A stretch of DNA of 64,000 bases from contig NZ_FNQN01000001.1 of the NCBI RefSeq assembly GCF_900107645.1, forward strand, positions 207,390 through 271,389, written 5' to 3'. The translations under genes and the position numbers were made by a program. This document shows, one piece after another, positions 30,789 to 33,664 of this stretch; the first letter of the stretch is position 1, and each line of letters opens with the position of its first letter. The stretch is from Desulfuromusa kysingii. GTDB lineage: Bacteria > Desulfobacterota > Desulfuromonadia > Desulfuromonadales > Geopsychrobacteraceae. Under the pieces are notes generated by a model. That model saw only the letters and a list, made by a program, of their open reading frames with translations, did no database searches and had not been told where the DNA came from.

Positions 30789-32777
30789 ATGATAGAGTTT
30801 ATTCGTAAGCGTGATGGTCGTCTGGTTCCGTATGAAGAAAAGAAGATTTCACAGGCCATCATCAAAGCAGTACAAGCCGTCGGTGGAAACGATTTTGATA
30901 AGGCGACGGATATTACCCATCAAGTTGGTGGCATCCTCACCGTCATTTACAAAGATGGCCGGGTTCCGACGGTAGAAAATGTGCAGGATCTGGTGGAAAA
31001 GATTCTGATTGAGAACGGTCACGCGCAAACAGCTAAAACCTATATCCTTTATCGCAAACAACGTGAGAATCTACGGCAAACCCGTGAATTCATGCGCGAA
31101 TCAATCGAATCTATCGATTCCTATCTCGTGCGTGAAGACTGGCGGGTTAACGAAAATGCCAATATGGGGTACTCGTTGCAGGGGCTTAATAACCATATTG
31201 CTGCAAATATAACCAGTAACTACTGGCTGAACAAAATATATCCCGATGATATTGCGAATGCCCACCGCGACGGCGAATACCATATCCACGATTTGGGGAT
31301 GCTGTCAGTCTATTGTTGTGGTTGGGATTTAAAAGATCTCCTGCTCAAAGGCTTCACTGGAGCTTACGGAAAAGTGCAGAGCGCACCACCAAAACACTTT
31401 CGCACCGCTCTGGGACAGGCTGTCAATTTTTTCTATACTCTCCAGGGTGAAGCCGCCGGTGCCCAGGCATTCGCCAGTTTTGACACGCTGTTGGCCCCGT
31501 TTATTGCTTATGATCAATTAAGCTATGCCGAAGTTCTGCAATCAATGCAGGAATTTGTCTTCAATATGAACGTTCCGACTCGGGTTGGTTTCCAAACGCC
31601 ATTCACCAACATCACTATGGATATGATGGTGCCATCTACGATGGCCCAGGAAGCTGTGGTGATCGGTGGAGAATTGCAGGATCGGTGTTACGGTGAGTTT
31701 CAGGCTGAGATGGATCTTTTGAATCGCGCTTTCTGCGAAGTGATGATGCAGGGTGATTCCTCCGGGCGGATTTTTTCTTTTCCGATTCCGACCTATAATA
31801 TCACCAAAAATCTGGACTGGGAGAGCGATCGGTTACGACCAGTTTGGGAGATGACAGCAAAGTATGGCATCCCCTACTTCAGTAATTTTGTCAATTCGGA
31901 TATGGATCCAGAAGACGCGCGCTCCATGTGTTGCCGTCTGCGCTTGGATAATCGTGAACTGCGGCGTCGTGGGGGTGGTTTGTTTGGTTCCAATCCCATG
32001 ACCGGGTCAATTGGGGTGGTGACGATAAACTTGCCACGGGCAGCTTATCTTGCCAGTGACCAAGCCGATTTCTTTACTCGGATCAGCAAGTTGATGAAGT
32101 TGGCATTTCAATCACTGGAGATCAAGCGTAAGCAGCTGGAGCGTTTTACGGCTGAAGGTCTTTATCCCTACAGTAAATTTTATCTCTCCTCCATCCGTGA
32201 ACGCAGTGGCAATTATTGGGATAACCATTTTTCAACAATTGGTCTGATTGGGATGCATGAAGCCTGTCTCAACCTCTTTGGGACCGGGATAGAAAGCCCT
32301 GAAGGGGAATCTCTATCCAAACAGACGCTTGAGTATATGCGCAAGCAACTTGAAGCGTTTCAGGAAGAAACGGGTCACCTTTACAACCTTGAAGCCACGC
32401 CAGCAGAAGGGACCAGTTTCCGTCTTGCCAATCGTGATCGACAGACGTTTCCTGATATTATTTGTGCTGGTGATGACGAACCTTATTATACCAATTCAAC
32501 GCAATTGCCGGTCGGGATCACCGAAGATATTTATGAGGCTTTAAGCCATCAGGATGAGATGCAGACCCTGTATACCGGGGGGACTGTTTTTCACGGTTTT
32601 CTCGGAGAAAAACTGGAAGATTGGCGCAGCGCCAGAATCCTGGTGAAGCGCATTGCAGAAAACTTCCATCTCCCTTACTTCACTCTGAGCCCGACATTCA
32701 CCATCTGTCCGGTGCATGGTTACATCTCTGGGGAGCATTTTTCCTGCCCTCATCTTCAAGATGAGCAGGCAGCGTAG
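30789..32777 (+). CDS. nrdD: Anaerobic ribonucleoside-triphosphate reductase, large part
   Basis: A 662-residue protein with an N-terminal ATP-cone (FIRKRDGRLVPYEEKKIS) and the catalytic barrel, including the active-site Cys pair region EDARSMCCRLRLDNREL and CGWDLKDLLLKG. It makes deoxyribonucleotides without oxygen. The C-terminus ends just after the first zinc-site cysteines (TICPVHGY...FSCP) and lacks the usual glycyl-radical segment. That segment is encoded separately at 32817-32963, so the enzyme is split into two chains. Confidence 0.93.
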   Translation: MIEFIRKRDGRLVPYEEKKISQAIIKAVQAVGGNDFDKATDITHQVGGILTVIYKDGRVPTVENVQDLVEKILIENGHAQTAKTYILYRKQRENLRQTREFMRESIESIDSYLVREDWRVNENANMGYSLQGLNNHIAANITSNYWLNKIYPDDIANAHRDGEYHIHDLGMLSVYCCGWDLKDLLLKGFTGAYGKVQSAPPKHFRTALGQAVNFFYTLQGEAAGAQAFASFDTLLAPFIAYDQLSYAEVLQSMQEFVFNMNVPTRVGFQTPFTNITMDMMVPSTMAQEAVVIGGELQDRCYGEFQAEMDLLNRAFCEVMMQGDSSGRIFSFPIPTYNITKNLDWESDRLRPVWEMTAKYGIPYFSNFVNSDMDPEDARSMCCRLRLDNRELRRRGGGLFGSNPMTGSIGVVTINLPRAAYLASDQADFFTRISKLMKLAFQSLEIKRKQLERFTAEGLYPYSKFYLSSIRERSGNYWDNHFSTIGLIGMHEACLNLFGTGIESPEGESLSKQTLEYMRKQLEAFQEETGHLYNLEATPAEGTSFRLANRDRQTFPDIICAGDDEPYYTNSTQLPVGITEDIYEALSHQDEMQTLYTGGTVFHGFLGEKLEDWRSARILVKRIAENFHLPYFTLSPTFTICPVHGYISGEHFSCPHLQDEQAA

Positions 32778-32816
32778 ATCGTTTAACAATAGAACTGAAA
32801 TTCAGGAGGATTATGA

Positions 32817-32963
32817 ATGGCAACCAAATGTGATGGTAAAACCGAAGTTTATTCACGTGTATGTGGATTTTTTAGACCTGTACAACAGTGGAATCGTGGT
32901 AAAAAGGAAGAGTTTAAGGATCGGTCTGAGTATGTTATCGCCACCAAGGAGAAAAAATCCTGA
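32817..32963 (+). CDS. nrdD: Separate glycyl-radical subunit of anaerobic ribonucleotide reductase
   Basis: A 48-residue protein beginning at ATG 32817 with a strong SD (AGGAGG, seven bases upstream). Its body is TEVYSRVCGFFRPVQQWN followed by GKKEEFKDR, which is the classic NrdD glycyl-radical segment with radical Gly17 in RVCGF. Cys5 aligns with the second half of the zinc knuckle whose first Cys is at the end of the large chain, so the zinc site may be shared between chains. It is too short for ordinary gene calls, and lies 36 bases after the large gene. It is activated by NrdG, which follows directly. Confidence 0.9.
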   Translation: MATKCDGKTEVYSRVCGFFRPVQQWNRGKKEEFKDRSEYVIATKEKKS

Positions 32964-33664
32964 AATCATTTCAAATTAAAGGCTTTCAGGGGACCAGCCT
33001 CCTTGATTTTCCCGGTCGCGTTGCTTCCCTGGTTTTCACGGGGCATTGCAACTTGACTTGTCCTTTTTGCCACAATGCCGGTTTGGTCCTGGATCCTGAT
33101 AGCTACCCGGATTATCCGCTTGATGAGTTGCTGGCAGACCTGCAAAAGCGTGAGGGATTTATCGATGGGGTTGTGATTTCGGGCGGAGAACCCACCATCG
33201 ATGCTGGTCTGCCAGCATTTGTATCGCTGTTGAAGGAGCGAAACCTACAGGTTAAGCTCGATAGTAACGGCTTGGCTCCGGACGTTATCAGCGCTTTGTT
33301 GGAACAGCAACTGGTAGATTATTATGCGATTGACATCAAAACAAGTCTCAGTCGTTATAATGAGCTTCACACTAAGCCAGTGGCGGTTGAGGCGTTGCGT
33401 AAAACCGTTTCAATCCTTAAGCAGGCTGCGGCAGAGGTAGAGTTTCGGACCACCTGTATTCCCCATTTGGTCACAGCCTCTGAGATTGCTGCGATGGGAG
33501 AATTATTGCAAGGTGCACCACTCTGGGTTTTACAGCAGTATGTGCCGTTACATGCTATGAGTGAAGAGTGGCGAAAGCTGACTAGTTATCACCCCCAGCA
33601 GCTTTATGATCTCGCAGAGCAGGCGGGGAAATACGTTGATCAGGTTCAAGTCAGGGGTGTTTGA
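32960..33664 (+). CDS. nrdG: NrdG activating enzyme (radical SAM), likely CTG start
   Basis: A 234-residue radical SAM enzyme that creates the glycyl radical. The cluster motif is GHCNLTCPFCHN. A start at the first conventional codon (TTG 33053) would delete the first cluster Cys, so the real start is upstream. The only open frame upstream begins after a stop at 32927-32929 and has no ATG, GTG or TTG before 33053. CTG 32960 overlaps the preceding stop (CTGA) and has AAGGAG eight bases upstream, giving KSFQIKGFQGTSLLDFPGRV, a typical NrdG N-terminus. ATC 32957 is an alternative. Confidence 0.85.
   Translation: MKSFQIKGFQGTSLLDFPGRVASLVFTGHCNLTCPFCHNAGLVLDPDSYPDYPLDELLADLQKREGFIDGVVISGGEPTIDAGLPAFVSLLKERNLQVKLDSNGLAPDVISALLEQQLVDYYAIDIKTSLSRYNELHTKPVAVEALRKTVSILKQAAAEVEFRTTCIPHLVTASEIAAMGELLQGAPLWVLQQYVPLHAMSEEWRKLTSYHPQQLYDLAEQAGKYVDQVQVRGV

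Follow-up and report, generated by a model that had tools for sequence, protein, structure and literature searches.

A probable two-chain class III ribonucleotide reductase in Desulfuromusa kysingii, and stand-alone glycyl-radical chains in phages

Desulfuromusa kysingii very probably possesses a class III ribonucleotide reductase (RNR) composed of two chains, in which the radical-bearing chain docks onto the catalytic chain via a zinc knuckle and can work in trans. The genes lie in the window (the whole 64,000-nucleotide stretch of DNA analysed here) as a run of three on the + strand: nrdD, encoding the large chain, a 48-aa gene and nrdG. The features of the locus are as follows.

30789..32777, + strand: nrdD large chain (662 aa, 75.3 kDa), with ATP-cone and catalytic barrel, ending inside the zinc knuckle
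32706..32747, + strand: zinc-knuckle part of the large chain, CPVHGYISGEHFSC, with C640, H643 and C653, read from the sequence
32804..32809, + strand: AGGAGG ribosome-binding site of the small gene, 7 nt before its ATG
32817..32963, + strand: small glycyl-radical chain (48 aa, 5.7 kDa), PF13597 positions 526-562
32829..32831, + strand: Cys5 of the small chain, candidate fourth zinc ligand by its offset from EVY
32865..32867, + strand: Gly17 of the small chain (RVCGF), candidate radical glycine, invariant in an 11-row alignment (A1)
32960..33664, + strand: nrdG activase gene (TIGR02495), whose probable CTG start overlaps the TGA of the small gene (CTGA)

The large chain returned 1029.7 bits against NF006126 (cut-off 548), carries an ATP-cone (PF03477) at residues 4-93 and covers positions 1-526 of the 562 in the Pfam profile PF13597. 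The small chain matches the same profile (E 2.5e-10, 40.1 bits, cut-off 26.2) from position 526 to 562, so that PF13597 divides exactly between the two ORFs, in agreement with the original prediction that NrdD is split and that its radical segment, which is not covalently C-terminal in the large ORF, sits on a separate 48-aa gene. The strong Shine-Dalgarno (SD) sequence claimed for that gene is also present (AGGAGG). The NrdD catalytic domain, the ATP-cone and an adjoining downstream radical SAM activase gene (TIGR02495, NrdG2; 169.3 bits) are features of class III RNR. At E values up to 1, only PF13597 was returned for the small chain (HMMER filters drop most matches above 0.1), and the Pfam scan did not place it in the PFL-type glycine-radical domain family, of which GrcA is a member. 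At 32960-32963, no ATG, GTG or TTG start for nrdG is available between the preceding stop and the conserved N-terminus; a CTG at -4, overlapping the small-gene stop as CTGA, was found in 13 of 29 loci read, which suggests CTG initiation with translational coupling.

The original prediction held that the large chain ends with the first zinc-site cysteines. The location was correct, but the first pair of the tail, TICPVHGYISGEHFSCPHLQDEQAA, is Cys-His (C640/H643); together with C653, the large chain would therefore supply three of the four ligands. There is neither a fourth Cys at +3 nor a glycyl motif in this tail. In a 69-row alignment (A2), C640 and C653 are invariant and H643 is present in at least 90 % of rows. 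Cys5 of the small chain lies five residues before the E of TEV, the offset at which fused NrdDs have their last knuckle Cys (e.g. CGRETEV), as had been proposed, so by sequence three zinc ligands fall in the large chain and one in the small.

In the enzyme that we envisage, the large chain would contribute the ATP-cone, the catalytic barrel and ligands C640, H643 and C653, while the separately translated 48-residue chain would bring Cys5 as fourth ligand and Gly17 as the glycine that holds the radical. The zinc would probably pin the small chain to the large, with the glycyl loop entering the barrel as in one-chain NrdD, and NrdG, encoded next, would then install the radical. Because it is a separate protein, the small chain could act in trans, and this enzyme could be kept supplied by further copies, whether encoded in phages and prophages or at other places in genomes. 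Physical association, a radical on Gly17 and a shared zinc are what we infer from these sequences. A read-through concatenation of both ORFs, folded as one chain using the 69-row alignment, gave a pLDDT of 86.6 and a pTM of 0.83, with values of 83-89 in the small-chain region (681-710) and below 50 in the linker (663-677) and at residues 390-400. Model residues 126-700 align to T4 NrdD 26-587 (Z 33.0, rmsd 2.7) and residues 95-716 to Prevotella copri NrdD 85-735 (Z 34.4, rmsd 2.7), the glycyl region included in both cases; since fused rows in the alignment favour docking, the model speaks for compatibility and not for binding.

The split is no peculiarity of one sequence. A PF13597 search of the D. 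kysingii genome found NrdD at one place only, the split one, and no full-length NrdD elsewhere; with the small chain in single copy and no intact one-chain NrdD beside it, the window chain is, as far as the genome sequence tells, a single-copy subunit and not a spare alongside an intact enzyme. PF02867 RNR matches occur at two genome loci (one tested fragment is NrdA/E-like), and for this reason the class III enzyme is possibly non-essential here. When the search was extended to 60 genomes (its own and those of the genus, family and order), 53 had PF13597 matches and seven did not; no uninterrupted 1-562 frame was found among the places listed, and five of the 53 (G005, G006, G012, G036 and G044) showed one piece only. 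A small-chain profile matched 107 of 121 order genomes, showing that the split is conserved among relatives. Three of the 14 genomes without a chain match belong to genus g11; two of these three (G037 and G057) are rated 100 % complete, have no PF13597 match at all and appear to manage without a class III enzyme. A fused frame is listed for G337 and G346, two of the 107. In G337, which also has a stand-alone small gene, this frame (C2:99983-100111) corresponds to the fused gene of Geoalkalibacter plasmid pGSUB1. On this Geoalkalibacter subterraneus plasmid (L161), in an order of split NrdDs, the fused NrdD lies beside a VWA gene.

Across 30 order loci, the window's included, the gap between large and small gene ranges from 19 to 290 nt (39 nt here), and the frame of the small gene relative to the large is distributed 13/9/8. 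An SD-like motif precedes the small-gene start in 30/30 loci, compared with 9.9 % of random places. Over 435 pairs, the small gene has a pN/pS of 0.088, with pN equalling or exceeding pS in none (0/435), although, with a median pS of 0.89, the synonymous sites are close to saturation and the ratio is rough. As the arrangement recurs in relatives, the split is not due to chance, and the varying frames, varying gaps and selection on the small gene rule out a frameshift or sequencing error.

Two break positions were recognised. In the D-type, seen in the window and in several distant lineages, the large chain stops before the fourth ligand, which the small chain brings; in the P-type (Pseudomonas, Cupriavidus and others), the whole CxxH...CxxC is in the large chain and the small chain begins further on. 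Regular expressions applied to 177 loci read recognised 98 pairs: in 54 of these the small chain contributes the fourth ligand and in 37 the large chain does, seven have it in neither chain, and no pair has it in both; these are not independent cases, as many rows are related and a few genomes were met twice (e.g. L022/L239). In the seven pairs with no recognised fourth ligand, the large chain reads CP[YL]PH, where our guess would be a His ligand. The fused frame of G346 (L294) is of P-type, its knuckle and glycyl segment being joined by a long linker. A second, P-type nrdD is present in f18 genomes (L282, L284, L285 and L287), with 607-861 nt from the large gene to the glycyl motif. Finally, two f59/g97 loci (L065 and L066), from a group that we take to be Desulfovibrio-like, seem, when read by eye, to encode a separate and diverged chain after the large ORF, RIRRITGYLVGTLDRFNNAKRAEEH; they would represent a further split NrdD subclass, and, lying below the tree score filter, were left out of the 98 pairs.

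A DNA pattern (SD, ATG and glycyl motif) scanned over genome contigs returned at least 118 loci, those listed comprising 62 with a stand-alone chain and 56 with a fused protein (L200 counted as fused). Fused proteins were caught because the frame was not fixed, and the ratio is no frequency since the pattern favours stand-alone chains. Among the matches listed, the large gene is just upstream in 54 of the 62 stand-alone loci; when the whole genomes of the other eight were searched, seven held the large chain or part of it elsewhere. In G473, only the last 38 positions of the large chain were seen, at a contig end. The stand-alone loci listed span ten phylum labels: Pseudomonadota (27), Thermodesulfobacteriota (15), Spirochaetota (3), Lentisphaerota (3), Planctomycetota (2), Myxococcota (2, a doubtful label on ‘Deltaproteobacteria’ MAGs) and one each in Margulisiibacteriota, Woesearchaeota, Muiribacteriota and Thermoplasmatota, with six lacking a phylum label. 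A Campylobacterota plasmid provides one additional case, and the species concerned include Pseudomonas, Stutzerimonas, Billgrantia and Allochromatium. In 50 named genomes, selected because they have a stand-alone chain, no uninterrupted full-length NrdD was listed; one of them (G497) shows tail pieces only. In Allochromatium palmeri (G475:C163) and Thermodesulfobacterium thermophilum (G517:C8), the NrdD match is in two pieces approximately 930-940 nt apart within one frame of more than 1000 aa, and the large chain possibly contains an intein.

Split and fused forms are interleaved on trees of the catalytic part. FastTree (54 rows) required 10 split/fused changes, at least seven of them forced by starred branches, and a quick IQ-TREE run (59 rows) required 11, at least five of them forced. 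These counts cannot tell splitting from re-fusion, support is partial, the rows had been clustered and, on the 59-row tree, the split label is more clustered than in most shuffles. A single origin of the split is not supported by the 10-11 changes.

The two genes can also be unlinked. In G468, a Spirochaetota MAG, the one large chain listed is on contig 41 and the one small chain on contig 3, with no chain in the 2.6 kb after the large gene; G466, G469 and G470 list additional chains that are not next to the large gene, and inspection by eye places recombinase-like genes beside some of them. All four are MAGs, in which contig breaks and binning limit any claim of action in trans. G469 (a Lentisphaeria MAG, L385-L389) combines a single fused NrdD with a single split pair and has four additional chains. 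That the radical and the zinc site would be completed between two chains, the core of the original prediction, is well supported by the conserved split, the lack of doubled ligands in the 98 pairs and the unlinked genes of G468.

As a control, 138 phylum genomes were searched with the chain profile, and 40 matched, roughly 25 with the chain in a long, fused frame. Only one of these fused genomes (G164) listed a second match, which lies in a 187-aa frame with a partial NrdD next to it; no extra short-frame chain was listed for the others at E<=1e-6. The control is limited to NF006126-like enzymes because the profile misses NrdD tails of other subclasses. In three f53 genomes (G125, G151 and G175), weak matches were found in 113-142-aa frames (L395, L396, L397 and L398) whose glycyl motif resembles the tail of the genome's own fused NrdD; by sequence, these proteins resemble a YfiD-like spare part more closely than the window chain does. 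The fused copy of G175 (L400) reads RVTSHGTH, compared with RITGYFTK in the other two genomes, and seems to have lost its radical glycine, although this is one MAG and could be an artefact.

Mu-like prophages of this order carry extra small chains. The extra chains in order genomes are of two kinds: second P-type pairs (the four f18 loci above and L288) and 11 orphans (L061-L064, L281, L286 and L289-L293) with no large chain in the stretch fetched. A GemA model matched 8/11 orphan loci, a count that is not independent because the model was built largely from these same loci; independent evidence for GemA comes from a Pfam GemA match in L286 and phrog_286 matches in L286, L290 and L061. L286 also encodes Mu Gam-like and transposition proteins, L293 lies with a phage integrase and L064 with a tail protein. 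In L292, CobT/VWA and CbbQ-like genes adjoin the chain, as a VWA gene adjoins the fused NrdD of pGSUB1, and no clear phage gene was found.

In IMG/VR, the best 80 of 304 relatives of the D-type profile comprised 66 in frames of less than 300 aa and 14 in long frames, the short frames including L079/L080, both interrupted by a stop, and L142, which is probably a piece of a fused protein; the best 80 of 148 relatives of the P-type profile were all stand-alone (80/80). GemA was near 23 of 82 viral loci scanned. Whole contigs were searched with PF13597 for 50 of 65 D-type and 50 of 80 P-type stand-alone loci, and no catalytic NrdD was found on 99 of these 100 phage contigs, which had the C-terminal piece only (50/50 D-type, 49/50 P-type). 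The loci were preselected as stand-alone, the absence of a catalytic part elsewhere on the contig was not selected for, and the contigs are often fragments and some are near-duplicates. On those 99 contigs, the chain lies apart from any catalytic subunit, as a spare part would, and the contigs are not simply host operons. The radical Gly is kept in 146/146 viral chains matched by the pattern (L079/L080 included), and pN/pS is 0.25 and 0.24, at high pS. Of the first 50 contigs, seven had radical SAM matches and 43 had none, so the phages would depend on host NrdG. One phage chain (L079, 6001-6123; also L080) is 80 % identical to the window chain and has an in-frame TAA, and may be either a pseudogene or a case of a recoded stop. 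Named phage records gave three matches to the window chain, of which at least one belongs to a fused protein, and one to a P-type chain, and two chains scanned against PHROGs matched full-length NrdD weakly. In the ANMV-1 virus (PMC4372165), residues 87-138 of a 144-aa gene labelled nrdD are such a stand-alone-type piece. Among plasmids, 29 records match the P-type chain; the chain precedes nrdG in seven of nine regions viewed, and in two Allochromatium regions a chain is present but a large chain is absent from the surrounding 3-4 kb.

Oxygen cuts class III RNR at its radical glycine. We are evenly divided over a broader proposal, namely that many bacteria and some archaea run an exchangeable radical subunit at a shared zinc site, and that this subunit alone is carried on phages, both Mu-like and other, and on some plasmids, where it would re-arm an oxygen-damaged or under-supplied host enzyme for phage dNTP synthesis. 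The extra chains in phages, prophages and MAGs fit replacement after damage; chain exchange after oxygen cleavage, a benefit to the phage and a spare-part role are what we infer from them. It is quite possible, though on balance we lean against it, that the separate gene reflects plain fission, is neutral and encodes a member of a permanent complex that is never exchanged, phage copies merely raising the dose: the chain mostly follows the large gene directly (54/62 stand-alone loci among the matches listed), and repeated splits need no repair advantage. This reading sits poorly with the chain standing alone on 99/100 phage contigs, the unlinked chain of G468 and the extra chains of G466, G469 and G470. 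That the phage chain is an inhibitor or decoy, titrating NrdG or displacing the host chain, is unlikely; the dependence on host NrdG implied by 43/50 contigs would suit such a role, but a radical glycine in every viral chain and a pN/pS of approximately 0.24 are as expected of a working part, and phages need dNTPs. A single polypeptide produced through stop readthrough, frameshifting or splicing is highly improbable: the ORFs are in frame in 13/30 order loci, the window's included, but five stops (TAG, TAA, TAG, TGA, TGA) intervene here, 17/30 loci are out of frame in both phases, every small gene has its own SD-like motif and the G468 genes are on different contigs; readthrough and splicing are ruled out by the stops and the unlinked genes. 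A decayed nrdD in a cell relying on its other RNRs, to which the two PF02867 loci might point, is equally improbable given the purifying selection and order-wide conservation.

One-chain NrdDs (NF006126/PRK08270, PF13597; T4, P. copri and Thermotoga maritima structures) have the ATP-cone, barrel, zinc knuckle, glycyl loop and NrdG neighbour in common with the enzyme described here, in which the knuckle and loop are divided between two genes. A close counterpart is on Cupriavidus necator H16 pHG1, where a two-chain operon encodes a large chain of 676 aa and 76.2 kDa, a 66-aa small chain and nrdG in the same three-gene order as the window; its break falls after the complete CxxH...CxxC knuckle (P-type), whereas that of the window is inside it. 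Siedow (1999) reportedly described a ‘76.2 kDa NrdD’ in H16. That figure is the mass computed for the large chain alone, and the small gene may possibly have been recognised in that work. In PMC2864759, which cites Siedow 1999, NrdDG of H16 is reported as essential for complete denitrification, and this lends genetic support to the two-chain operon working; the same paper names NrdDG of Cupriavidus metallidurans CH34 Rmet_5137 and Rmet_5139. We found the CH34 small chain in the plasmid record without a listed gene, and the skipped number, Rmet_5138, may be this chain.

Among glycyl-radical proteins, spare parts have been validated for PFL only, namely YfiD/GrcA of Escherichia coli and phage T4 Y06I, and such parts for other glycyl radical enzymes may exist, according to PMC8683613. 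As proposed here, a stand-alone glycyl-radical protein completes another chain, and a phage version exists; however, YfiD/GrcA and Y06I rescue an intact one-chain PFL after O2 cleavage (same source), whereas here the host enzyme itself is split, the window part is NrdD-like and the phages carry NrdD-type chains. The split class II RNR NrdJa/NrdJb also has two chains, with a predicted zinc finger on the second, but differs in class and has no radical glycine (PMC3267527 and PMC9669993); a split phage class I subunit is described as well (PMC3267527). No discussion of a split class III NrdD was found in the accessible portions of the open-licence literature searched, including those of PMC4390871, PMC9531940, PMC9669993, PMC3019208 and PMC11226230, and no chain-only model was returned from NCBIfam or Pfam for the chains scanned. 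The locus belongs to a widespread and apparently little discussed two-chain variant of class III RNR.

Sequences of fewer than 400 residues were excluded from the RNR phylogeny in PMC9531940. Large-chain-only entries in NrdD sets are without their radical residue, and length filters drop the second half of such an enzyme. The pieces are already catalogued, with public annotation naming the small chain nrdD in many of the 29 plasmid records. Most surprising of all are the chains that stand alone in phages, each being a short phage gene that is easily missed; they are concrete candidates for glycyl spare parts outside PFL. In a natural two-chain enzyme, the radical part could be loaded, quenched, cleaved and replaced independently, and the repair of RNR becomes a question that can be asked.
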